From positions 11,405,412-11,469,411 of the forward strand of contig NC_061065.1 in NCBI RefSeq assembly GCF_021917145.1: DNA of 64,000 nucleotides. The letters are read 5' to 3'. This document shows positions 26,053-54,875 of this stretch, one piece after another (position 1 is the stretch's first letter; each line of letters opens with the position of its first letter). Below the pieces are notes generated by a model that had not been told where the DNA came from, made no database searches, and saw only the letters and a program-made list of their open reading frames with translations. The position numbers and the translations under genes are program-made. Source of the stretch: Hypomesus transpacificus. Lineage: Eukaryota > Chordata > Actinopteri > Osmeriformes > Osmeridae.

Positions 26053-29000
26053 ATGGAGATTGGGACAGAGATAAGCAAGAAAATTAGGGTAAGACGTAAT
26101 GTAATAGTCGTGTGTGGTTGTATGCTAGCTTGCTACTGTTAGCATGGTTAGCCTATTTGTCTCACTGTAGTCTGATCTAGTCTAGTGGTTGTGATATGCT
26201 AGCCAGATTGACAGTTATTGTAATAACTATTTAGCTAGCAAATATTTTGATCCCAACCTGTTGTATGCATTTCTAACTAGCTCATGAAGTTATTTGTTTA
26301 GCAGCAATTGGTGTGGGCAGCCAGCTACGCAGGAGAAAAATGTGTAGAAAATGTGTCAAGCTACAGAGCGGGACAGTGTGTGCTTGTAGCTCGATCTGGA
26401 TTAGAAATGCTGGTGATAATGCATGCATATAACTGATACCAACGATAGATCTAAAGGCACTTGTCTTTTTTTATGCAATATTTCAGGCGGCCATCAAGGG
26501 CAAGCTTCAGGAACTTGGAGCGTATGTGGGTAAGTATGGATAGTAGTGCTTAGAAGCCGGCTTTAAAATATTGCCCCTACTAATATGAATGAAACTGACA
26601 TATTTAATTGAGCTATCCTAACCTTTTTTTTTTTTGTTCAGACGAGGAACTCCCTGACTACATAATGGTTATGGTGGCGAACAAGAAGACTTCCCAACAA
26701 ATGGCAGACGACCTTTCTCTCTTTCTTGGGAACAACACTATCAAGTTTACTGTCTGGTAACTAGCAGATTTTCTTCTATACGACGTGACTTGAGTGTTTC
26801 TCAATGAGTTATGTATTCGCCTCGCGGTAATATGTCAATAGAGTTGCTTGGGTTTGTATGTCATTGCAGGTTGCATGGTGTCCTTGAGAAACTAAGATCT
26901 GTTGCAGTGGGTAAGTCCCCCAAAATACTATCTTACTGCCAAAGCGGTTATTGATTGTAAAAGATCATTAAAAAATGCATCTGATTGCGATGGCCTTGTA
27001 GCTGATATTGTGATGTTTTATCTTTTGTAGAGCCAGCAACCTCAAGACCCCAGCTCTTTGATAGTGGTGTTCCTGCTGCTGAGAGTCATGACTTGGAGAG
27101 CGAAGTCAGGAAGGGGGAGGGGTCAAAGGCCCTTGCTGTGTCCAGCACACGCTCTGACAGGGCAGAGACCCGTGTGTCAAGCTCTGCCCATGACCACCAT
27201 GCAAGGTGAGTGTCTGCAGGTCATCATAACGTCTGGAATATTAACGTTTTGGATCAGTTTATTGTTGAGTAATTAGCAGTTGGAGTACAGGCCATGTGAG
27301 ACATTGTCCTTTTCATGCCGGAGGCATTATGTAACATCAGCAAAATTAAATATAACCTTGGCTCAACAGGTGCCAAGCTAAAAACTCATCCTATCAATGG
27401 CTCTTTTCAAATAGACTACGAAGAATAGGAATGTAAACTTTTAAGTTGACTGGTTAATAACACACCACTGCAAAACCATTATTTCTAGTTTTTTCAAAAA
27501 TATGAACATGCTGTTTAAGCTATGTAGGGGAACTGCCATTGAACAGATGGGGATTTCCATTGACAATGCATCTGGTGTGTCTGTCATACTAGCTAAACAT
27601 GTTATCGTGGCTCTGGCCTTTGTCTCAGTAAACATTAAGTAAGTACATATACACGTAAATCTGGATGGAGTAGGAGATTTGACCCCAACCTACCGCCACC
27701 TCTATGAACGACCTTGGGTTAACGTCACACATGGTCATTTATCTGAAGGGCCGCCGCAGCAGAGCGGATGTCCTCCCGCCTGACATCCACTGTGAAGCCC
27801 ATGATGGAGCCGCCGTCCTCCGAAGCAGTCATCGACATCAAGCCTGAACTGGACGATGACCTTATTGCCACAGACGTGGTGGAGGTAGGCGTCCCAGGTG
27901 GTCGCATGCGCGGAAACTCCAGCCGTGCCACGGCGCAGGTCTACAGACCCCCGCCCGGCAGGTCCTACTCCGGCAGGTCCGCGGACACCTACAGGTCTTT
28001 TGAGGGGTCCTCACACAGCAGGCACCAGGAAGGAGCCTTGCAGGACCGAAGAAGCAACAGGACCTCCAGAAATGGGGCCAGCAGTAGTAGGGTATGTTGA
28101 ACAGCAACTGAAGCTTTTTAAAATCTTTGGGGACTAAGAACTTATTTGAATATCCAAGGGTTTGCGAGTGAATTGTTGATGTATTTATTTTTTTGGTGGT
28201 GGGCCGTTATCGGCATTAACGTGCTGCGTTAACGTGAGACTCCTGTCGGGCGATAAAAAATAATAATATTGCTTCCTGTGTTTGACCGAATCCTGTTCTG
28301 TTTCACAGCATCAGCAGGATGAGGCGTCACGAAAACGCAAGGCGCCAGTAGCCAGTTCTGTGGTCCGGGTGAGCAGAGCTGCAGACGAGGCTCAGGATAG
28401 TGACGACCAGGATGAAGAAGATGATGATGATGAGGAAGATGAAGGCTATGGGGCCCGTAGCATGTCTAGCCGGGTCTCCCTGCCTAGGAAACCAGAACGC
28501 AGGTGAGCGGTGGTGCTGTCTGTGGGACCTGCATTTAGGGCTTTAAAAAGAGCCACTGGTCTCTATGTGGCTCCATCTACATAAATGTCAGAATAGTGTC
28601 ATCTTTTTGTTTTTGAGGTTGTCTTTCAAATGATGGCTTCATATTCTGATGCTCAAGCCTTTAGTAGTATTAGCTTGGGGTATGAATGTGTCGTATGTGT
28701 TCCTCCAGACCCTCCCTGCCACCAGCCAAACAGGCCAATAAGAACCTGCTCCTCAAAGCCATCTCTGAGGCACAGGATTCCATCTCCAAGACAACAGCTT
28801 ACCAAACAGGTACATGTGCTTCCCATGCTAGCTGAATGATAGTGTGTGTGATAGGGCATGACTAGAGGGGTTTAAGAGAACTCTGACCCAGTGACACTGA
28901 CCTGATCCGTCTTCAGACCTTCAGAGGAGCAGTGGAGAAACACAAGCTCTTGGCTGAGTTGTGATGTTTTCTTCATGTTGCCCTCCTCCTCCCTCCAGTC

Positions 29001-31604
29001 CACCAGAAGCAGACAGTGCCCGTGGCGCCCCGGACCCGTATGGTCAGCAATGAGATGAGTGCCGCCATCCAGCTGGTCCAGGAACACCTTCACAGCCTGG
29101 CTCCTCGGCCCCAGACCTACACCCCCACTGGGCTCCAGCCCCCTAGGCACGCTGGTGGGTCACATATCACCCTGGACAATAGAATTCTGGGTGTATTTGG
29201 TTGATGAATTATAATCTCATGTAATGCAGCTGCTAATTACAAAAGGTATATTGATCCTGAGACAATGTCCTCTCCCTTCCAGTTCAGTCGAGATCGCTGG
29301 CGTCCCGTCTCCAGTTGGACCTTCCGGAGGAGAACGCCACAACGCTGCCCTCTGACTTAGGTAGGTGGAACTTGCATTACCCAAGCAACTTGAGTCTGGA
29401 CCAGAGTTCTCAAACTGTAGAGTTGGGTAGTAACGTCCCAGTATTTTGCTATAGAAGAGAACATGTATTTCTGAGCGTTTTGTGCTTCAGTGGCAGCGGA
29501 AGCCGAGGAGCAAGAGGGCAAGGCCCTGGACACGCGCTCCTTCATCATGAGCAGGCCTGTCCTGGCGGAGGAGCCCGTCTCTGTGAGGAGCAGGCTGGGC
29601 CTTCTGGATAAGGAGGACATCACACCTGCTACACTGCGCATGGTGCAGGCCAGGTACACACCCTCCCTCTGCTGCTACATGGTGCAGGCCAGGTACACAC
29701 CCACTCCCTCTGCTGCTACATGGTGCAGGCCAGGTACACACACAACATACAGTGTTCGCCTCTTTTAATCTTGCCCTCTTACCAGGCGCTCACAATAGTT
29801 AGCTTGTCAGTGCTGTGCTTCTTGTAGACCTAAACTCAGCCTCTGGTCTGAGTGTTGTGGCTCTTCCTAGTTGAAGGGTTTTGTTCCCACTCTGTGTCTC
29901 CTTAGTAAGGAGAAGGGTTCTGTGCTGGGCTCTGCTAGTCCCAAGTTCATCGTGACGCTGGACGGCATCCCCAGCCCACTTGGAAACCTCGCCGACTGCG
30001 ACATGGAGACGGATGACGGTGCCAGAGTGGCTAAGACTGCCGTAGCCGAGGCAGCCATCCATTTGAACCGTGAGCCAAAACTGAGCATCCATCAGAGACT
30101 CCAGCATGGAGCCCTCTTTGCTGACGGTAAGACTCTTTCAGGACACTGGGGGTAGGTTGAGATGTAGTTGTTCCAGATGGTACTGCACATGGTGTATTAT
30201 GTGTCTTCCTAAGTCATGGCCTCCATCTCATCCCCCCGTTTCTAGAGGAAGAGATGGAGATGGGGGAAGACGAGGCCGTCCCTGTCAAACGACAGAAGGT
30301 TCTAGAACGCTGCAAGTTCTGGCCCGTGTGTAAGAGTGCAGACGACTGTTTATACCACCATCCTACCACACAGTGCAAGTAAGTACTCGGTGAACACAGA
30401 CGGCACAGGTGAGACATTCTGAAGATGGGATTTGAAAATGCAAGGATTGAATATTGCTTTTGCTGCACACCCCCACATTATTTAACATCTTTTTATAATT
30501 TTGCTCATCCAGAATGGTGAAGTTGATGATTATTCTGGCTATAGGTATATGGCATGCAGATTTGCTCTGTTTTAATCTCTTTTGTCTTCATTCTTGTCTC
30601 ATGGAAGGACATTCCCCAACTGCAAGTTTGGAGAGAAATGTCTGTTCGTCCACCCCAACTGTAAATACGATGCTAAGTGCACCAAGCCAGACTGCCCCTT
30701 CACTCACGTGAGCCGCAGAGGCCCCGCCCCCCCTCCCAGACCAGGTAGGAGGACACACCCACACAGCAGCCAGTATTACCAGGAAATAAATCCCTGTATC
30801 ACCATGAGTTTTTGTAATTGAATGGGTTGGGCTGATTGCGGCGTGCGTCCTTGAGAACTAAGACGTACGGACAGACCTGTCCCCACTGCAAAAAAAAATC
30901 AGAAAGGTAACCCTGTAGACATTTGAGATGTGTAGCTTTTGAATCCCTGTTCCTGTCTCCCCTTCAGTCTTTACTCCAGCTCTCTTTACTCCAGCTCCAC
31001 AGTCGCAGAGTGCTAGTGTGTGCCGCTTCTTCCCAGACTGTAAGAAGGTGGACTGCCCCTTCTACCACCCCAAGGTAGTACACATGACCGCCCTATACGT
31101 GTGATTCTGGAGCACCATTCTTTGAGACCTTGACTTTAGATGCATTTTGTATGGTCTCAATAGTATCTATACATCCAGAAGTATTGTGACAGTTGTGTCC
31201 TGTAAGCGGTAGTGCAGCTGCCAGTGTTTTTCTGAGTGTAAAAGTGGAGTCACCCCAGCAGGAACAGACTGGATGGTAACACGTTGTCTTGATATGCAGC
31301 CTTGCAGGTTTGCAGCCCAGTGCAGGCGTACGGGGTGTACCTTCTACCACCCCTCCACCTCTGTACCTCCCAGACACGCCCTCAAATGGACAAAAACTCA
31401 GAGCAGGTAGGAAGGAACACACACACTACAAACACACTACACATACACACATGAAGAGCGCTGAGACTAAGCAGGTATAGTATCATTTACTAATTGATAC
31501 AGTGAAATATAATGTATATAAGTATGATATGACTATTGGTCTGCAGGTATATGGTTGTATTGTAAGTTAACTCCAGTGTTTTGTTTGTCCCTTTTTGTAG
31601 TTGA
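26053..31604 (+). CDS. zc3h14: Zinc finger CCCH domain-containing protein 14 (Zc3h14/MSUT2)
   Basis: Seventeen coding exons join to 717 codons plus stop: 26053-26088, 26487-26529, 26642-26756, 26870-26910, 27031-27205, 27749-28091, 28309-28502, 28709-28809, 28999-29154, 29283-29360, 29491-29653, 29906-30126, 30246-30378, 30608-30744, 30968-31074, 31300-31406 and 31601-31604. All junctions are GT/AG and the phases agree. The start is the ATG at 26053, followed by MEIGTEISKKIRAAIKGKL, the PWI-like N-terminal fold of this family. Exon 6 carries the conserved VIDIKPEL segment and exon 7 an acidic stretch. Residues about 580-715 hold five CCCH zinc fingers (for example CKFWPVCKSADDCLYHH and CRFFPDCKKVDCPFYH). 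The family binds poly(A) RNA in the nucleus and limits poly(A) tail length; this role is family knowledge. The human protein is 736 aa. The last exon supplies only one base before the stop. The end of exon 11 is triplicated with its splice donor. Confidence 0.95.
29639..29742 (+). repeat. triplicated splice-donor segment in zc3h14
   Basis: The exon 11 end and its donor (CATGGTGCAGGCCAG|GTACACAC) occur three times in tandem. The possible exon ends are 29,653, 29,692 and 29,733. Using the second would add 39 bases (13 codons, in frame, no stop). Using the third would add 80 bases and shift the frame. The first is taken as the normal donor because it keeps the downstream exon in frame and matches the family length. 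Confidence 0.9.
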
Positions 31605-34265: not shown

Positions 34266-37047
<2,782 letters not shown>

Positions 37048-38736: not shown

Positions 38737-41616
38737 CTACTCAATGAGCTTCTTTGCTTTGAAGAAGCGGCGGAGGTAGAACACCTGCCAGGTGGCCAGG
38801 CCAATCAGACAGCACATTGAGAAAATGCTGAAGTACAAAACACGGGTGTTTGTAGACTCTGAAATTAATAGAAAGAAATATCAGCAATGTAATTCAATTC
38901 ATAGAGTTTTGGGTGTTGTCTTAATTATTGCAAAATCAGCCCAGTGGACAAAACAGAACTTGGAGTTGTTTCCCTTTTATCAGAGCTTGATACATCCATG
39001 TTGTGAGTGACCTTCAGTATTCCTACCATTGGTGTCCCTCATCTCCTCCTCCCTCTTCTTCATGTAGGCAAAATCATTCACAATGGACTCTGACAGGTCC
39101 TCCAGTCTCCTGAGCTCCACTTCCAGGGGCTTCAGCTTTTCCACTTTAGCAATCTGATAGGATAGAAGACCCAACAATCAACAACACATCATGTTCACGT
39201 GATTTAGATAAAAGGACTCACCACCTCACCCTTTAACCTTAAAAAATAAACTTGAGGGTCAGTAGGGAACAGTATATGATTGCCAACTGTATTTGAATTA
39301 AATATGCTATGACCTTTTGTCCAGTAGATGGCCCTCTTGAGCTCCTATATTTCGAAAACTTTGTAGCAATCAATGCCAAGGACAAACTGATTCTGTTTTT
39401 ATAAAGAAACCAAGAGAATACACAGTTTGTTCTTTCATGTTTTATCTTCTCACAAGTTCAAAGCTTATATGTGAGGCCCGATACATAAAGTATTAGGTTC
39501 AACAAGTTTCTAATCATTGCTTGCCAACTTGACAAAATGTTCAGTAATTACAGACGAGTGATCTCATCTGGGAGAGATCCACGCCAATAGAACAATCTGT
39601 TCAAATGTTGTGTAACTGGTACGCATTTGTGCATGCCTATTGGACGTGTTGGCCCTAAATTTGTTCTGCTGTCTACTATAACACGCATTTGGCTTCAGGC
39701 GTACATTCACACAATACGCTGCCGTTCTCCTGCCCACTCAGGAACTGGAATTCACTCAGCAGAATGTGTGTGGTGTGTGTATCTGTCTGAGTGGGTGGAG
39801 GGTGATTCTCAGTCTAGAGGGCTTCCTAGCTCCCCGCCCCCCCCCCCCTCCCCTTCTTAAAATCGAGTCATCTGGCATTGGCATTTTCAACTCAAATTTG
39901 AAAAGGGAATAATATACCTATTAATTTCTCTCCATACGCATTATGTGGCATAAATATAATATTTTATAAACATTACAATTACAAAGGAGTAAGTCAAATT
40001 AGAATGCCAAGCAGCAATTTTCCTTCATTTAAAGAAAAAAATATTATTCAAACTAGACTACTCACCTCTTCATAGTTCTTGGCCTCCACCCCATGCTTCA
40101 TGTCCAGGTTGACCAGTTGGTCTGGGACCCTCCCAGTTCCTGATTGACATAAGACACAGATTCAAGTTGAAGCCAAAATTCTGGTCACATTCAACCTGAA
40201 TTGTTCATTTTGCTTAAATAATCTTTAAATAGAGTATGCAAGACACATGTGACAAATATTGTCCTTAACTTACTAGACTGAAGTGTCAAATCACTGTAAC
40301 TGAATATATTTAAATAATCACCAGTTACCAGTATTTTCTAACAACAAACTAATGGCTGACTGCATGTCTACTCACCCATTGGAGATTTGCTCTCAAAGCA
40401 CACCTCAAACATGTCATAATCCTCCGTAGTAAAGGCAAACTTTCCTTTTGTGGCATCTTCCTTGGAGTACAGGGTGTGAGTCGAGGAATCTGTAATCTAA
40501 AATATTAAGACTTGATATCAGACCCTTCCTAAGTAAACCACATCCGTATTCGAGCAGACAATTGATCATTTATATACAGTTTACCTTTACTTACAAAATG
40601 AATACATGCCCAATTGCCCATAGTAATACATTGAGTAACATTCTGTAAACCAATGATCTGACAGATGGTGCACGTTTCCTGCTATTTTGTAGTTAAGGGT
40701 CTACACACTATTTTCACAAATCAAACCAGTACATCTAATTTTATTGAAAGTGATAATGTTATGTGTTTTTTTATCATAATTTTTTATCATTTTTTATCAG
40801 CCTGCTAAACGTAGCTAGCTGTGTGGGAAGCAAGCTAAAATTTTCGTTGGGCAAACTGGGCTAAGACTGACGTGTAACATCCTAATAAGAGTTCACCACA
40901 GTGACAGAACAGGTACATTTGCCAAAAGTAAATCACCAGAAACACAGATTTCAGAGATACCGTATTTAAACGTTGATACGCGACCAGTATATAACCATAT
41001 AATGAGTGTACAAAATTAATCCACAGTTCACGTAAGAAAACATAAAGACGAGCTGGCATAAGTGTAAAACCAGGAAAGGCACGTCAGGCCCACAACACAG
41101 TTTGCTAGCTGACGACTCTCAACCTCTGCTACTGCTAGCTCAGTAGCTTAATAGCAATAGCAAAGACAGACTAATAATTGGACGCAGCTTGTTAAGATGT
41201 CACTCGCTAGCTAACTTCACCCAGCTACTTTAGATACAAGTTTTTTTTCTTTAATTGATAGATAGCAAGATAATGTGCATTTTTACATAGGTAGCTAGTT
41301 AGCCAAGTCAGGGCCCACTAGTGTTAGCTAACCTAGCTTAGCTGGTTTAAATCAATCGGTTAGCTCTAGATTGCTAACAACTAAACCAGTATTCTGCTAA
41401 GCTAGCTTGGCTTTGCGACATCCTCGCCACCAAACTCACCTTTAGGTTTGTTTTGGTGTTCGCTTGTTCGGAAATGTCATACTCCCCTGTGACGAGAACG
41501 TCTTTGTGGATCTCTTCCCGTAAACATTTCCTGGAATTAACTGGTAATGAGAATGAAATTGAAAATACCGATTCAATGAGAACCGGTAAAAGCAGTAAGA
41601 AAACGAACCGAGCCAT
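38737..41616 (-). CDS. tmed10: Transmembrane p24 trafficking protein 10 (p23/TMP21)
   Basis: Five coding exons on the minus strand give 206 aa (human 219): 41616-41440, 40496-40376, 40139-40066, 39153-39027 and 38858-38737. Residues 1-19 are a signal peptide ([19 protein letters not shown]). The GOLD domain follows ([20 protein letters not shown], later [14 protein letters not shown]), then a coiled-coil segment ([20 protein letters not shown]). Next come one membrane helix ([15 protein letters not shown]-like) and the short cytosolic tail [11 protein letters not shown]. That tail has the FF motif for COPII and the KK motif for COPI coats. The protein is a type I membrane cargo receptor cycling between ER and Golgi and is a member of the p24 family. 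Exon 1 of the fish gene lacks the longer Pro-rich N terminus of the human protein. As in mammals, the gene sits next to fos. Confidence 0.97.
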
Positions 41617-46138: not shown

Positions 46139-47931
46139 TTAAAGAGCTAGCAGGGTGGGGGAACTGAGGGAGTCGGAGGACTGATCGTTGCTGTTGCTGC
46201 CTCTCCTGTGGGCGATACCGCAGGTGGGGAAGGTTTCTGCCTCTGGGTAGCTGAACACAAAGGAAGACGTGTAGGTGGTACAGGAGGGAGTGCAGGTGAC
46301 TACAGGTGTGCACAGGGACTCAAAGTCATTGCTGGCAGAGGTGTAGAGGGGCTCCCAGTCCTGGTTGTAGAGTGAGTTGGACAGGTCCACTTCAGGAACC
46401 GACCTCGCCGTCTCCATCTCTGTCTTGGCCAGCAAGTCGAGAGACTCCTCGAGCGTGGAGTCCAGGTCGGACATCTTGACTGCACCACTGGTGTTGGAGG
46501 CGTTGGAGAGGAGAGGGCTGCTGGAGAAGAGGGAGATGGAGGTGGATATGGTGTTGGCCTGGCTGGTGGGTGCCACAGTAATGGTATTCTGGGGCTGTGG
46601 GATTAGCTCGATGGGAGAGAGGGAAGTGGTGTGGAATCCAGAGTTCAGGTCAGAGGGGATCTTGCAGATAGGCTTGTGGGCGGCCAGGATGAATTCTAGC
46701 CTTTCCTTCTCCTTCAGTAGGTTGGCAATATCGTTCTGAATGCTTGACTTCTCATCCTCCAGTTCATCAGTTTCCTGCCAATCAAGAGGGAGAAGCACTG
46801 TTAATTTGGCTGTTAATTAACATCGTTTTTAGCACTGGAGATGAATTATAAATATGCAATAAGTCTCGCTGGATTGTGTATTTGAATACTTACAGCTTGG
46901 AGAGTGTCGGTAAGCTCTCTTCTCCTGTTGCGGCACTTGGCTGCTGCCTGCTTGTTCCTCTCTCTGCGGACTTTCTTTTTCTCTTCCTCCTCAGCTGAAA
47001 CCTGGCAAAAAGAAAAACAATCACATTATTTCTCAACTCTTTGATTCTATCTCTATGTCATATGTAACCTTAAAGGACACAGGGCTGCTTTTTATATTGA
47101 CAGGGACACTCCCTCTTGTGTAAGTCACTGCCAGTTCTTGGTTATGATAATTACCTGTTCCATCTTGCTCCTCCTGGAAGAACCGTGGCCCTTGTTGCTT
47201 GTGGACTTCATTGCTGCCCTTGAATAGGATGGGCTGGGGCTTGAGCTGTAGGGATTGCGTCTGTTAGAAGGGGCCACTGACGAAATAAGCGGCTGGACCA
47301 TCCACTGCAAGTCTGGGCTCGCAGATATGGCTGTGACTGTGGGGATGAAGGAGGCACTTTCCACTGTCAGGTCAGTGAAGTCCTGTAGGGAATTAAGGGA
47401 AACGCTGGTCAGAACAGGACATATAAATATATTGCAGACATTGGGTGAAGCAATGCACTGCATATGAATGAAGCAGTGGTCTATATAAAGCAGGGTGGTC
47501 TATAAATATCCCCGTGATGTAAGCTATGACGTTAACATCTCTCTGGAGTTTCTTGGTGAATGAAGATTGCGTGCCTTGTTACAGAGTTAATGTTCAATCA
47601 ACTTGACATACTATAGTGGACTTTTGATGCATATAATTCTGCCTCTCTTACACAAAATAATAGAATCAGTAATCAATCATTTTCGATGTTCTGGTTCTGG
47701 TAGGTTGAGCACAAGTTGAATCGTTGTGTTCTTTCTTCAATTAAATAAGCAATGCGCATTTGATTGATCAACATAGATCAACATTGATCAACATACCTGA
47801 GATTGGGGAGATCCCATGCTTGAATATGATCCCGCAGGAGAAGGGTAGTATGCTAGGTTGTCACCAACTGGAGAAGCGGTGCTGCAGCGGGATGAAGAGT
47901 CGCAATCTGTGTTGAAAGCGGTATACATCAT
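46139..47931 (-). CDS. fosab: Proto-oncogene c-Fos (AP-1 bZIP factor)
   Basis: Four coding exons on the minus strand give 368 aa (human 380): 47931-47797 (45 codons), 47382-47155 (76), 47001-46894 (36) and 46774-46139 (211 plus stop). The start is the first of two adjacent ATGs, [20 protein letters not shown]. Exon 2 has the Fos signature [20 protein letters not shown]. Exon 3 is the basic region ([17 protein letters not shown]). Exon 4 opens with the leucine zipper ([20 protein letters not shown]). The protein ends in [13 protein letters not shown], the conserved C-terminal transactivation and phosphorylation tail. Fos proteins pair with Jun to form nuclear AP-1. The symbol follows zebrafish naming for the tmed10-linked copy and is an inference from synteny. 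TATA and serum response elements lie upstream, and the gene is divergent to a second fos gene. Confidence 0.96.
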
Positions 47932-48102
47932 CGTTTCAGAAGATCACGAAAATGAAAAATGATTGAAAGGTTTGACGTTGTCTTCGAAGAAAGTGTTCGG
48001 TTGGCAAGTTTGACAGTTTAAGTCCTGAGTTTAGGTCCCGTGCTGTCGTGTTGATTTCTACGTTGCTCAAAGTTAGACTATCATCTCTCACTGCTCGATG
48101 GG

Positions 48103-48110
48103 TTTATATA
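48103..48110 (-). promoter_or_regulatory. TATA box of fos
   Basis: TATATAAA on the minus strand, 172 bp upstream of the fos ATG. It predicts a start of transcription near 48,075 and a 5' UTR of about 140 nt. Confidence 0.8.
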
Positions 48111-48147
48111 GCCTGGTCTTTCTTTTTTTTTTGTAGAGGAAAGCCTA

Positions 48148-48198
48148 CTGACGCGAAGAAGGTGGGACCATCTTTGCAGGGGAGGGGAATACGTCAAA
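48148..48198 (-). promoter_or_regulatory. CRE-like sites of the fos proximal promoter
   Basis: On the minus strand TTTTGACGTATT (around 48,190-48,197) and GCGTCAG (around 48,148-48,154) lie about 40 to 90 bp upstream of the TATA box. Mammalian c-fos has its main CRE near -60, so the position fits. Confidence 0.55.
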
Positions 48199-48390
48199 AC
48201 AAGTCCAAACTTTGTAATCTATCTACAAAATACGAATCCTAAGTATGTGACATATGCACAGTTATTTGAATAAAACTAAAGTTGTGTTCTTAAATATGAT
48301 TTTATTGTGAATAATTGTCCAGAGATGCATGTCTATAAGTTACAAGTTCCCCATTCCTAAAACATGGAACGTTCCAGAAGGGAACCCCAA

Positions 48391-48422
48391 TACGTAATTT
48401 GCCTTATATGGTACGCATCCTG
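48391..48422 (-). promoter_or_regulatory. serum response element with ETS and AP-1-like sites (fos)
   Basis: Read on the minus strand the order is CAGGAT (48,417-48,422, ternary complex factor/ETS site), five bases, CCATATAAGG (48,402-48,411, CArG box for SRF), then TTACGTA (48,391-48,397). This is the arrangement of the mammalian c-fos SRE (ETS, CArG, FAP). It lies about 330 bp upstream of the predicted start of transcription (human about -310). Confidence 0.85.
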
Positions 48423-51400
48423 TGAAAAAGGCGGACCCTGATTGGAAGGGGAGGGTAGTCTGTTCAACGCAGTAATGTGACGTTACGTAAAGAAAACAAG
48501 AGGTTGTTGTGAAGACAGCACGGGACAACTACGAGATATGGTCAAAAATGGCCACAGGTGTCATGTTTATATTAATTAAATATACCTAACATCGGTTGAA
48601 AAATGTGTGGTCTGTAACTGTTGTTTTCCTAATGTTGTTTCCTCAATGGTTTTGATTTGAACAAAGCGTATAAGACAGTGGAACTTACATACCCTTATTG
48701 CTACAAAAGTAGTATGTGATAACTAGTACAGTTTTGTAATGCATTCGAAGTTCTGAAGAACAAACATTAGGCAATTCTACGACCAGGCTTATCAGTGCAT
48801 TCCGGTGCATTTACTAGGGTAAGATGATTTATATATTCAAGCTAAGCAGATGTCGTGGTACTTTTCCATTTGTGTACAAACTGAGCAAAAATGTTGTCCC
48901 TTTGCTACACAGAAAAAGGGAGGCTATTTTCTCAAGCCCCAACAACATTCCTGTACCGCATGTCTTGCGCAATGGCAATATGTGTACCTGTGCGCGCGCA
49001 ATTCTGAGAAGGACGTGTATTGGGCGTGTACAGCAAGAAAGGTGTGTTTTTATTGTATTGGTTAGACCTCGCAGTCTCTCCTTAGTTCATCAACCCAAAG
49101 GTGTTCCCTCAGGAATGCTAGAGGTTTGCTTACTTCATCAAAATATAACTGCACCATCACAAAAACTAAAGGGCCTTTATTATTATATTTCATTTTATAG
49201 TTTATGTTTAATAATACTTAAAGGAAGTTGAAACATTTACAATTCCAAATTGAATTAGATTCATAATTGAGTCATGCTTTATTTGTATACGTTTTCAGAC
49301 ATTCTAAAATCCCAATAGGCTGGATTAAATTGCCATGGCTGGAATATCTCAATTTCGGATTAAAAAAATTAAACAAATATTTTACTAAACTTTTCATGTC
49401 ATGGAAAGTTGGTATCCACAATGGCTGTCTCGACTCTATCTGAATTCGCAGTATCAGCGTTTTCATTGGTTTCCTAATTTCAAGCAGCGTTTCCCAGGTT
49501 CATGTTTTGTTGAAAATTCTTCGTTGCCCTGACAACGCCCCACCCCTTCGCGTCAGTGACGCTCTCGGTTTGCATAGCTCTTTTCGGAGCTGAGCAAGTG
49601 GAATGGGACACCCTGCCTCCGCAGTCACGGACATTGTTTGTTTAGGTATCTAAACGAATTGGCTAGAGCTTTATTCAGAACATTTTGACTAAAGTGCATA
49701 ATCGCAATGTTTGTTCTAAAAGAGTGTACCAACAGGTTTGAGTTAGTTAGACAGTACTGTAGGTACTCAGTCAGCAAAATAAACTTAGGCCTATGCATTG
49801 TTAGTAGCCATAGCTGTAGGCTACTGTCTCTGGACAAACGTTTTTATCAAGTAGGCTAGGCAAATTGTTGTTTTCCCGTTAACCTTGATTGAGTTTAAAA
49901 TAAACAGCATCAGTGATACAAACAGTTGTTTGCTCTTCAGAACCCACCCCCGCCCCCTAATTCCCAATAACTAGCCTATATACCGAATTCGACAGTTGAA
50001 CACTTCTGATTCAAGCTCTGATGTCATCCTTTTCCTCAAATAGACTCCTTCAGAGAGTTTCTCACATTCAGTCTTAAGTTACCCCAAGTTAAAACATTTC
50101 TTTGAGGTGAAGTGATAGGGTCTATATTTATCTTAACATTTTCGCCCCCTTCTTCTTCAAAGGCGACCTAATGAACGACCACCCTAATGACATGCCGGTA
50201 AACGGGCCAGGGGGGCGTGACTGCCGGGAAAAGCACCGCTCTAGTATTTCAGGGTTCAGTTCGCAGTCTCATTTGAAAGCATTGTGAGGTCATCGAATGT
50301 GAACAATGGGGTTCTCGTCCACAATTCACGAGATTTGTGTATGCACGATATTCATTGAACAACCTAAACAGCCATGGTTTGAACGCAAGTAAATGGGTGC
50401 TGTAATGTGTGCTATAGCGTAGATCCGTGGCCATTATTTTTATAATAATTTAAATAATTGATCCGTTGTAATTGCAATCCTGCTTACTTGAGTTTTTCTT
50501 TTGTTTGAAACAGAACAACATAGCACTAGCTGAAATAGAGGGATTTGTGCGTCCATGTGAACCGGATTTACCATATATGGTCCTAGCGGTCCTCTTTGTG
50601 ATTGGCTGTCGCGATACAGCGACAAGTCTGTTGCTGGAGCTGTATCCATCTGGCTGTGTAATAGCATAATGACAAGGTATTAATAACTTTTACAACTAAA
50701 TGGCATAATTTCGGTTTGAATCATCATGAACTATTTATAATAGCTATACAGGCCATGCATACAGAGACATCTACATGCTGGTATAACAGCAAAAAAAGCA
50801 ATAATCGGCATTCATCAAGTCCTTCATCTCCAGCTTTATTATGCAATGATTAGAACACTACATAAAATCAACTGTATGTGTATTATGTGTAGGCTATATG
50901 TGACGCTGGATTAAGATAATTACATTTTGCAGTGGAACCGCATTGGAACGCATGGCAATGTTTTGTGACGTTATTTAAAAATGACAAAGGTAGCCTACTT
51001 GCTAAAATGTAGCCCAACACACTATAGCATATGTGCGTGAATTTGGCATCGTGGACGGGGACTACTATGTAGTTTAGTAATTATTATGAAAGTAGCCTAT
51101 GTGCTCAATGTAGCTATGTGTGCACAAAATGAACGTATCGGCTACGTAATGCAAATTCTGCATGGTGACGTAGTTCATTCATAAAGTGGGGATTTCATCC
51201 ACCGTTTTCTTGAAGGGGGATGTAATTTTAACATTAATTCAATTTGTAGCACTTGAATTATGTAATACGTTCAGATAAAGCTAAACAGTTTTATCTGCCT
51301 TATATAATGTTTACTCAGATGAGTTGTTTTGTTGAAACAATTAACCTGTTTATTTCCTTTCCATCAGCCTCCCCTCTTTCTGAAATGGTTTTGTCTCACC

Positions 51401-51432
51401 ACACCGATTTCATTCATAAAATTCGAGCTCAC
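48423..51432. other. shared intergenic region between divergent fos genes
   Basis: This 3-kb region has no exon. It carries clustered motif sites: TGACGTTACGTAA near 48,478-48,490; an RFX X-box-like GTTGCCCTGACAAC at 49,523-49,536; and the CRE-like palindrome GCGTCAGTGACGC at 49,550-49,562. The second ETS/CArG pair (listed separately) and a CRE (TGACGTAG) at 51,166-51,173 complete the set. Activity-regulated enhancers upstream of c-fos are known in mammals; equivalence here is inference. Confidence 0.6.
50562..50624 (+). promoter_or_regulatory. second ETS plus CArG element with CCAAT box
   Basis: CCGGAT (50,562-50,567, ETS) is followed after three bases by CCATATATGG (50,571-50,580, perfect CArG). 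Downstream are an inverted CCAAT box (ATTGGCTG, 50,601-50,608) and the inverted repeat TGTCGC...GCGACA (50,607-50,612 and 50,619-50,624). It lies about 900 bp before the start of the second fos gene and 2.5 kb from the first, so it could serve either. Confidence 0.65.
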
Positions 51433-51440
51433 TATAAAAG
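51433..51440 (+). promoter_or_regulatory. TATA box of second fos gene
   Basis: TATAAAAG 140 bp before the ATG at 51,573. It predicts a transcription start near 51,463. An imperfect CArG (CCTTATATAA, 51,298-51,307) lies 135 bp upstream. Confidence 0.75.
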
Positions 51441-51470
51441 GAGGAGATTTCCACTGTCTGAACAGTTACC

Positions 51471-51488
51471 ATGTACGTGAACCTCTAA
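51471..51488 (+). other. short upstream reading frame in 5' UTR
   Basis: ATG TAC GTG AAC CTC TAA, five codons and a stop, within the predicted 5' UTR of the second fos gene. It would begin only about 8 nt after the predicted start of transcription, so whether ribosomes use it is uncertain. Confidence 0.4.
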
Positions 51489-51572
51489 CACTGATAGGGA
51501 ATTCTGAATAATCAGAACAGCAAAATAGGTATTTTATTACTTACAGAAGAACAGTTGCCACCTGGGAAAAAG

Positions 51573-53998
51573 ATGTATCCCGACTCAAGCCCTGATTACG
51601 ACTCGTCGTCCAGCTGTAGTACGACATCGTCTGCTGGGGACACCCCCGTGTGCAGCCAGAACTCTCCAGACTCGCTTTCTAGCGCATCATCTACGGACGG
51701 CACGAGCCAGAAGGTACAAGCCTGTATACAGATTTCGGTTAATGTTCCAGGAAAACTGTCAAAATTAAATAGCAAAACTAACCCTGAGGCTTTGAATATT
51801 CCTTGTACAAAATATGTTGTAGCCTAATTTGCATGACTAAATCACTGATTAAATCACTGACAGTTATTGATCTCCACCCTCCGATTTAAAATGCACGCCT
51901 CCATTGACAGAAAATATGCAAAGTATTGACCTGTCATTCCAATCAGTAACGACAACGATAAAATGTCTGAGTATACCAATTAAAACGTCTATAATGTTTC
52001 TCATGACCTTTAATATTGTTTAAATGGAGACTTGATAACGACCCAATTAAGATAGATTGTATAAAATGGTAAAGATAATGATGAACAATTGTTATAGCCA
52101 GCCACAATTCGTATTTTAATGTATTGTGCATTATTGATTCTTGCGTCAGTGTTGACGTCAGAAGTTATCCTAAAATCCACATTTAATCGATTTTGATGAT
52201 AATGGAAACATGTATCCTTTCTTTGTGGACACATCAGCCATTAAGCTGCTATCTAATCATCGTTGACATTCTCACTCAAATGATTGATGCGTTTACCTAA
52301 CGCACAATAATGAAGGTCAAAGATAAACGCATCCGACGAAAGCCCCTTCATAATGATCAATCTGAAATGGCAATATGAAGTGAACGGTTTGTTTATGCCT
52401 TATTTGCAGGATGTTTGTGCAGAAACAGGTGCGTCAAGCTCCACCTTTGTTCCCACTGTGACTGCAATCTCTACCTCCCCGGATTTGCAATGGATGGTGC
52501 AGCCGACAGTCCTCACATCTGACACCCCCTCCCCTGGCCGCAATCAACCAAGGAAAGTGCACGGCGCTCTACAATCCTCTCATAGAGCTGGTGGTTGCAA
52601 GAGACAGTCCACAGGCAAGAAGGAACACAAAAAACAGGTACTTTTTAAATTCGACATTTAATATATGGTCTTAAATACAGTTGTGTACAGAGCTATTGTG
52701 ATTACGCGTGAAAAGCTTATCGCTTATTCGACTACGCCAACAGTGCAGCATTTAACGCACGCGTTGAACGCAGTCTGGTGTTGAAGACAGCACGCACTCG
52801 AATCTTCTACGACGGTGTATTTGAACCACATGCACTGCGGAAAAATGATGTATTGTCCATGCCATAATATCTCCGTGCCAACTTGTGCCAAGACGTGTGC
52901 CAAGACGTGACAAGATTGCCAGACTGTATACGTATTTAAATATTTCTTTGTTTCTGTGATTGATTCAGCCTTCCTCAGAGGAAGATGAGAGGAGGAAGAT
53001 CAGAAGGGAGAGGAATAAGATTGCGGCAGCCAAGTGTCGCAATAGACGGAGGGAGCTTACAGATACCTTACAATCTGTAAGTATGACCCCTCATATTTTG
53101 AAAAAGCAGACACACATATACAGAGTATTATATTTTTTAACCGTGAGGTAATACAATGTTATACTTAATTCTATATTCACATCACATTCATAACATCATT
53201 CAACCAAGTCAGACTGGCCAAAGCCATTCAAGAATTGGATGGGCAGCATTTGTCAAATACTCTCTGTCAGCTATTCCTCCTAACAAGTCTGTACCCTGGT
53301 ATATCTGCTTTTCCCTGCAGGAAACAGACAAGCTAGAGGATGATAAGACTGCACTGGAGACCGAGATAGCCGACCTCCTGAAAGAAAAAGAGAGACTGGA
53401 ACAGATCCTAGCTTCCCACCAACCCACCTGCAAACTGTCCAATGTCGATGGCGATATTGAAAGCATGCTCCAGGACCCTCCGGCTTCCCCTCACATACTC
53501 TCCATATTAGACCACAGCAAACTCCCAGAGGGAGGTGTAGCCTTGGAGGGCCCCTTGATGCAGGACATTGAAGCCTTTGCTCCTAACATTTCTGCAACGG
53601 CCATCTTGGGGAACTCCAACATCCTGTTGTGCGCCACTGCCACCATAGAGGAGCCCATGAAGGACCTGAGGGGAGACGACTTGGAGGACTTGGTCCCAAG
53701 CTTAGAGCTGACGAATACCTCTGAAACGGCTGTGTCCGTACCTGACATTGACCTTGGAGGCCCCTTTTGCGTCTCTGACTGGGAAACCCTTTATAAGTCA
53801 GTGGCAAATGACCTTGAACCCCTCAGTACCCCGTTTGTGTCTTCCAGCCCCACCTGTAGCAGTTACCGCTCTGCTTTCTCTTTCAGCTGCTCGGAGATTG
53901 ACTTCTTGGCAGAGAGCCTCGATGGCCTCAAAGGTAGCCTGGGGAGGTCAGAGTTCACAAAAGATAGTCTTCATTCTCCCACACTTTTGGCCTTGTAA
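51573..53998 (+). CDS. Fos-family bZIP transcription factor (tandem divergent fos paralogue)
   Basis: Four coding exons give 384 aa: 51573-51713 (47 codons), 52410-52637 (76), 52969-53076 (36) and 53321-53998 (225 plus stop). Exons 2 and 3 have exactly the lengths of those in the neighbouring fos gene, and all introns are phase 0. The start is ATG 51,573 ([20 protein letters not shown]). The in-frame sequence upstream has no ATG. Exon 2 carries [20 protein letters not shown]. The basic region is [17 protein letters not shown], with Ile where c-Fos has Gln. The zipper begins [20 protein letters not shown]. The C terminus LHSPTLLAL matches c-Fos. It should form AP-1 dimers with Jun; that is family knowledge. 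It is clearly Fos-like and closer to c-Fos than to FosB or Fra in its ends, but I cannot fix its accepted name. Confidence 0.94.
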
Positions 53999-54811: not shown

Positions 54812-54875
54812 TACGTCACAACGTTCACTTCCTTGTCCATAAATGGAAGTTCAGTTGTTTTGTTTCCATGGAGAC
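54812..54875 (+). promoter_or_regulatory. promoter-like block: CRE half-site and RFX X-box
   Basis: TACGTCA (54,812-54,818, reverse of TGACGTA) is followed 44 bp later by GTTTCCATGGAGAC (54,862-54,875), a near-palindromic X-box of the type bound by RFX factors and often found at cilia gene promoters. A possible first exon with a good splice donor follows. See the reading frame at 54,940-55,169. Confidence 0.45.

Follow-up and report, generated by a model that had tools for sequence, protein, structure and literature searches.

A divergent pair of c-fos genes in Hypomesus transpacificus and a third c-fos gene in a second tmed10-jdp2 block

Two complete c-fos genes back to back

The 64,000-nucleotide stretch of the Hypomesus transpacificus genome analyzed here (hereafter the window; G000:C6:11405412-11469411, within a 437-Mb genome) carries two Fos-family genes, A and B, which lie head to head between tmed10 and jdp2. 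Coordinates are window positions unless a contig or locus is named. Both gene models are intact, with a start codon, three GT/AG introns and a terminal stop; each coding sequence has a length divisible by 3 and a single stop, at its end. The TATA boxes of the two genes are ∼3.3 kb apart, and the arrangement is that of the original prediction, which had described two complete Fos genes facing away from each other. The features of the pair are:

46139-47931, minus strand: gene A, probable fosab-type c-fos, 368 aa; exons 47797-47931, 47155-47382, 46894-47001 and 46139-46774; intact model
47932-51572, no strand: upstream region common to A and B, from start codon to start codon, 3,641 bp, read from the sequence
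48103-48110, minus strand: TATA box of A, TATATAAA on the minus strand, read from the sequence
48402-48423, minus strand: serum response element-like composite of A (Ets + CArG), ACAGGATGCGTACCATATAAGG, oriented toward A
50562-50580, plus strand: Ets + CArG composite of B, CCGGATTTACCATATATGG, oriented toward B
51433-51439, plus strand: TATA box of B, TATAAAA, read from the sequence; within the stretch 51316-51484 that matches the core promoter of gene C
51573-53998, plus strand: gene B, second c-fos, sister of gene C, 384 aa; exons 51573-51713, 52410-52637, 52969-53076 and 53321-53998; intact model

Exons 2 and 3 measure 76 and 36 codons in both genes, as had been claimed, and the two proteins are 41.7% identical. 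The N terminus of B had been called quite different from that of A; exon 1 does differ (38.6% identity over 44 aligned residues), but the description was overstated, as both genes retain the pattern D-DSSS-CST-S--GD.

A Fos-type basic region and an acidic leucine zipper are present in A and B, as seen from PDB matches and heptad residues, and among solved proteins c-FOS is the closest to both (5.5e-27 for A, 1e-24 for B). In Pfam, B scores above the cut-offs of PF00170 and PF07716, while A is above the PF07716 cut-off and slightly below that of PF00170 (26.8 vs 27.6 bits). A, B and the third gene, C, described below, have the four exons and 36-codon exon 3 that we take to be the general layout of the family. 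Trees were computed on two alignments, each combining seven Fos genes of Hypomesus (B included) with human FOS, FOSB, FOSL1 and FOSL2. B and C group together, and the approximately unbiased (AU) test rejected the placement of this group with FOSB (p 0.017 and 0.019 on the two alignments), with FOSL1 or with FOSL2 (p < 2e-5), and with FOSL1 and FOSL2 jointly (p 0.011 and 0.015). Under the Shimodaira-Hasegawa (SH) test, which is less strict, the placements with FOSB and with FOSL1+FOSL2 were still acceptable (p 0.24-0.27), and in an earlier AU test of B alone the FOSB placement was not rejected (p 0.082 and 0.081). Human FOSB, FOSL1 and FOSL2 belong with B to the bZIP family, but they lack the C-terminal block VPD-DL...DWE-L that is common to human FOS, A, B and C; A is 61.9% identical to human FOS. 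The original prediction had staked itself on B falling outside the FosB and Fra clades, and there it falls: a FosB or Fra identity was discarded at AU p ≤ 0.019 for four placements on two alignments, with SH leaving two of the four. On the trees and the C-terminal block, B is a c-Fos gene. GTDB contigs searched with B for fish contamination gave 43 pattern matches and 0 relatives.

The basic region reads NKIAAAKC in B and NKQAAAKC in A, as first reported. The suggestion that the Ile of B signals an altered choice of dimer partner is not supported: the site, which lies outside the zipper, varies (M in C and in solved human FOS, L in FOSB, Q in A and Fosl1), and at its a and d positions the zipper of B matches human FOS, with 4/5 g positions acidic, so that pairing with Jun is expected. 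A keeps FSYP, the TP sites and the HRRGS context. B has neither an FTYP-type docking motif for extracellular signal-regulated kinase (ERK), reading FSFSCS instead, nor the RxxS context of the ribosomal S6 kinase (RSK) site, reading LKGS; the roles of both motifs are those that we presume for c-Fos. The RSK-type context is lost in C as well as in B. B retains TP/SP sites, an N-terminal block of 17 letters and the C-terminal SPTLLAL tail. FOSB also departs from FTYP (FVLTCP), so the ERK/RSK motifs are no strict feature of c-Fos membership.

Between the two start codons, A and B have one Ets + CArG composite each, and we assume a likeness of both to the serum response element (SRE) of human c-fos. 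Two such composites compare with a mean of 0.04 in 300 resampled sequences, 0/300 of which reached two, under a rule set post hoc. Counted over the full window, two composites are no more than chance would give (44/300 resampled sequences reach two), and CArG boxes alone show no excess over chance there (7 vs a mean of 5.34). A promoter duplication between A and B was considered and dropped, the matches being short only (17 bases at most, E 0.041). Two further sites lie close to or within B. A CArG box, CCATAAATGG, with an Ets core of opposite polarity is found at 54826-54846, ∼0.8 kb downstream of the gene, and the sole perfect cAMP response element of the window, TGACGTCA, lies at 52153-52160 in intron 1 and is not rarer than chance.

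A third c-fos gene and a second block

A genome search with A as query gave 26 matches at E ≤ 0.01. By locus, these were A, B, gene C, fosb (contig C15), a Fosl1-like gene (contig C1) and fosl2 (contig C3, 8.55 Mb), and further a diverged Fosl2-like gene (contig C6, 3.73 Mb), jdp2, a jdp2/atf3-like gene (contig C6, 4.26 Mb) and one weak match on contig C40. The third c-fos gene is located as follows:

C3:1610283-1612531 (L043:4284-6532): gene C, third c-fos, probably of fosaa type; four exons, exons 2 and 3 of 76 and 36 codons, GT/AG introns

On contig C6 the gene order is tmed10(-) A(-) B(+) jdp2(+), with jdp2 on the plus strand ∼13.5 kb beyond B. C is flanked by a second tmed10 and a second jdp2; the C3 block, reversed, reads tmed10(-) C(+) jdp2(+), and C has the same place and direction between these genes as B. 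All 9 tmed10 matches with >50% identity, among 12 in total, were on C6 and C3. B and C form a sister clade with 100/100 support on both alignments, and the two trees tested that set B alone or C alone beside A were rejected (AU p < 1e-10). The B and C proteins are 52.4% identical and have in common an exon-2 gap of 4 codons that is not in A, and the B core promoter (51316-51484) matches that of C with 54.0 bits, a score that 0/200 shuffles reach. Equal exon lengths had been offered as proof that A and B arose by duplication. They cannot serve in this way, because exon 3 has 36 codons in A, B and C alike, and the indels by which exon 2 of A gets to 76 codons are not those of B and C.

Beyond A on the tmed10 side, the window contains the following genes:

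38743-41568, minus strand: tmed10 (exon matches); tblastn with human TMED10, Pfam EMP24_GP25L at 9.6e-50 when the exon peptides are joined
34269-36129, minus strand: eif2b2 (part; three exon peptides recognized); PDB eIF2B beta 3.5e-59 with two peptides joined, Pfam IF-2B in 2/3 peptides
26608-30379, plus strand: probable zc3h14; Pfam PWI weak (0.0047) and Nab2-type zinc finger 6e-05, both under the curated cut-off

The tmed10 matches bear out the earlier placing of the divergent pair next to this gene. The name zc3h14 is one that we assume from two exon peptides; a 41-bp tandem repeat (2.6 copies, 29639-29741) lies between them. A GAG microsatellite of 71 copies occupies 1406-1618.

Order of the duplications

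At fourfold sites, the tmed10 copies differ at 29/54 and the jdp2 copies at 33/59, and the fos genes at 55/90 (B-C), 48/66 (A-B; 50/69 on another alignment) and 59/80 (A-C). The B-C divergence is similar to that of tmed10 and jdp2 together (p 0.39), while A-B and A-C are above it (p 0.025 and 0.010). Together with the tree, these divergences lead us to place the split of A and B first and the copying of the block later, which suggests that the inverted A-B pair is older than the block duplication. With 52.4% identity, B and C would fit a recent duplication less well than the old one of teleosts.

We consider it probable that the ancestral fish c-fos locus held two back-to-back c-Fos genes between tmed10 and jdp2, alpha, which is today A (fosab), and beta, today B, and that this neighborhood was then copied in a block duplication, most probably the whole-genome duplication of teleosts. 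The C6 block would have retained alpha and beta, and the C3 block beta only, in the form of C, of fosaa type. Several observations weigh against this explanation. The block duplication is seen for three genes only (tmed10, fos and jdp2): the 30 kb around C (C3:1596000-1625999) gave no hit to peptides of eif2b2 or zc3h14, and batf has its best match on C6 at a distance of 1.2 Mb, the matches listed including none on C3. The fourfold sites are near saturation, and A-B vs B-C taken alone is not a significant difference (p 0.17), nor is A-C vs B-C (p 0.10). The duplication would be called teleost-wide from divergence within one fish genome. According to Kubra et al. (PMC9456341), zebrafish Fosaa retains C-terminal phosphorylation sites, as opposed to the loss of the RSK-type context in B and C. 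Finally, a CArG/Ets match on C3 (L043:7142-7189), collinear with the element of A (window 48377-48423) and of the same polarity, is weak (28.3 bits, reached by 14/200 shuffles); that it is a relic of the SRE of a lost alpha gene is suggestive only.

Other histories of the pair were weighed. The original prediction derived one gene from the other by local duplication and inversion, and a recent inverted copying of A to give B, after the block duplication, would account for their adjacency, their orientation and the four-exon layout that they have in common. However, the closest relative of B is C, on another contig, and not A; a tree that joins B to A and leaves C outside fails the AU test (p < 1e-10), A and B are 41.7% identical vs 52.4% for B and C, and their fourfold sites (48/66, or 50/69) are near saturation, all of which makes a recent local copy very improbable. 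The kinship of B with C, and a duplicated block traced through three genes, would also suit a copy of C that moved next to A after the block duplication. Such a move would have needed to restore by chance the position and orientation of C between tmed10 and jdp2, its introns and its conserved core promoter, and B and C have diverged about as far as the copies of tmed10 and of jdp2; we regard such a move as quite unlikely. That the pair is an artefact of assembly is scarcely credible, given a window with 0 N on a contig of 15.1 Mb, a C3 block that independently shows tmed10, a B-type fos gene and jdp2, and an A-B identity (41.7%) too low for B to be a haplotype copy.

A deeper origin, in which A and B split before human and fish did and beta was lost in tetrapods, coelacanth and lungfish, is compatible with the ancestral alpha/beta pair proposed above, and we hold it to be possible though doubtful. 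The best tree on both alignments sets B and C outside A and human FOS (ultrafast bootstrap 88 and 65), but placements of B and C with A (AU p 0.158 and 0.137) or with human FOS (0.184 and 0.48) are not rejected, and the branches of B and C are long, as branches drawn toward the outgroup tend to be. An exon-2 gap of two codons relative to human FOS, common to A, B and C, also speaks against so early a split. Zhang et al. 2025 (PMC11808014) report that bichir, coelacanth and lungfish have one fos gene each, which would call for several losses.

In a working model, each gene is served by a TATA promoter of its own and by the Ets/CArG element that points in its direction, and the Ets and CArG sites predict that both are immediate-early genes fired by the same signal from ERK and serum response factor. 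The two might share enhancers within the 3.6 kb between them. Their proteins are predicted to pair with Jun and to bind activator protein 1 (AP-1) sites, and that of B to be less stabilized by lasting ERK signaling, because FTYP and the RxxS context are lost.

Zebrafish names and consequences for fish c-fos

Peptides of published zebrafish oligonucleotides, short peptides only and each in its best-scoring frame, were scored on the seven Fos proteins of this genome. Zebrafish fosaa (six oligonucleotides) scored 156 on C, 132 on B and 112 on A, and fosab (ten oligonucleotides, two of them overlapping) 236 on A, 216 on C and 204 on B. Zebrafish fosb was best on the fosb gene (85) and fosl1a on the Fosl1 gene (97). 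It counts against these assignments that one of four naming controls failed, fosl2 being best on xFosb (90) rather than on xFosl2 (83; a model without exon 1). The fosaa peptides PTIITSV, SVSPSQG and AQGESP match C over B (33/23, 27/18 and 19/16), so that B resembles an ohnologue of fosaa on the fosab side and not fosaa itself. An identification of B with zebrafish fosaa from two primer peptides was dropped, as gene C matches better. A is like teleost fosab and tetrapod FOS in FSYP, the TP sites, the HRRGS context and the upstream SRE-like element, and differs from tetrapod FOS in the Gln at the variable basic-region site and in lying on the opposite strand relative to TMED10 and JDP2, the human order and strands being those that we take to hold. 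With teleost fosaa (zebrafish; Kubra 2022, PMC9456341; Zhang 2025, PMC11808014), B falls in the same clade by way of C, and DWETLYK is identical in B, C and a zebrafish primer peptide. The reading of A as fosab type and of C as fosaa type, made from sequence comparison, is supported but not proven.

Zebrafish fosl1b is named after FOSL1, but its six primer peptides match B about as well as xFosl1 (112 vs 110; xFosb and xL050 both 102), and these scores are too close for a choice. Reading a fosl1b primer as TNQPR, comparable to NQPR of B, was set aside since this is not the best-scoring frame. A passage of PMC9456341 has fosl1b as an outlier to all Fos subclades. The Fosl2-like gene at L050:4735-5926 (G000:C6 ∼3.73 Mb) is very diverged (branch length 1.5) and has an SPTLLTL tail; it may correspond to zebrafish fosl2l or fosl1b.

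On this reading, fosaa and fosab look like out-paralogues (beta and alpha, respectively) and not like twins born of the genome duplication in fish, while B looks like an extra c-Fos, the beta gene of the fosab block. A literature search and passages of PMC9456341, PMC11808014, PMC10273277, PMC7047409, PMC10469461, PMC8369891, PMC9961154, PMC8480854 and PMC11233345 gave no statement on fosaa-fosab adjacency; the synteny figures of the first two papers were outside this scope, and a statement may be in print there. We tentatively propose, at somewhat less than even confidence, that the names fosaa and fosab hide an older alpha/beta pair that predates the teleost duplication and was thinned in each block, with three of the four expected genes kept here and B, without a clear zebrafish name, maybe being fosl1b. 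The pair on C6 would then form a two-gene immediate-early unit with one output that reads ERK duration and another that does not.

The finding is ordinary in kind, since the duplication is an old one and the gene family is well known. In fish, c-fos is commonly used to mark neural activity. Should fosaa and fosab be out-paralogues, and should some fish carry a third c-Fos head to head with fosab, single-gene knockouts, probes and antibodies may miss the other genes or cross-react with them, and compensation between neighboring fos genes could weaken mutant phenotypes. A c-Fos with ERK docking paired with one that lacks it would be a natural test of c-Fos as a reader of ERK duration.

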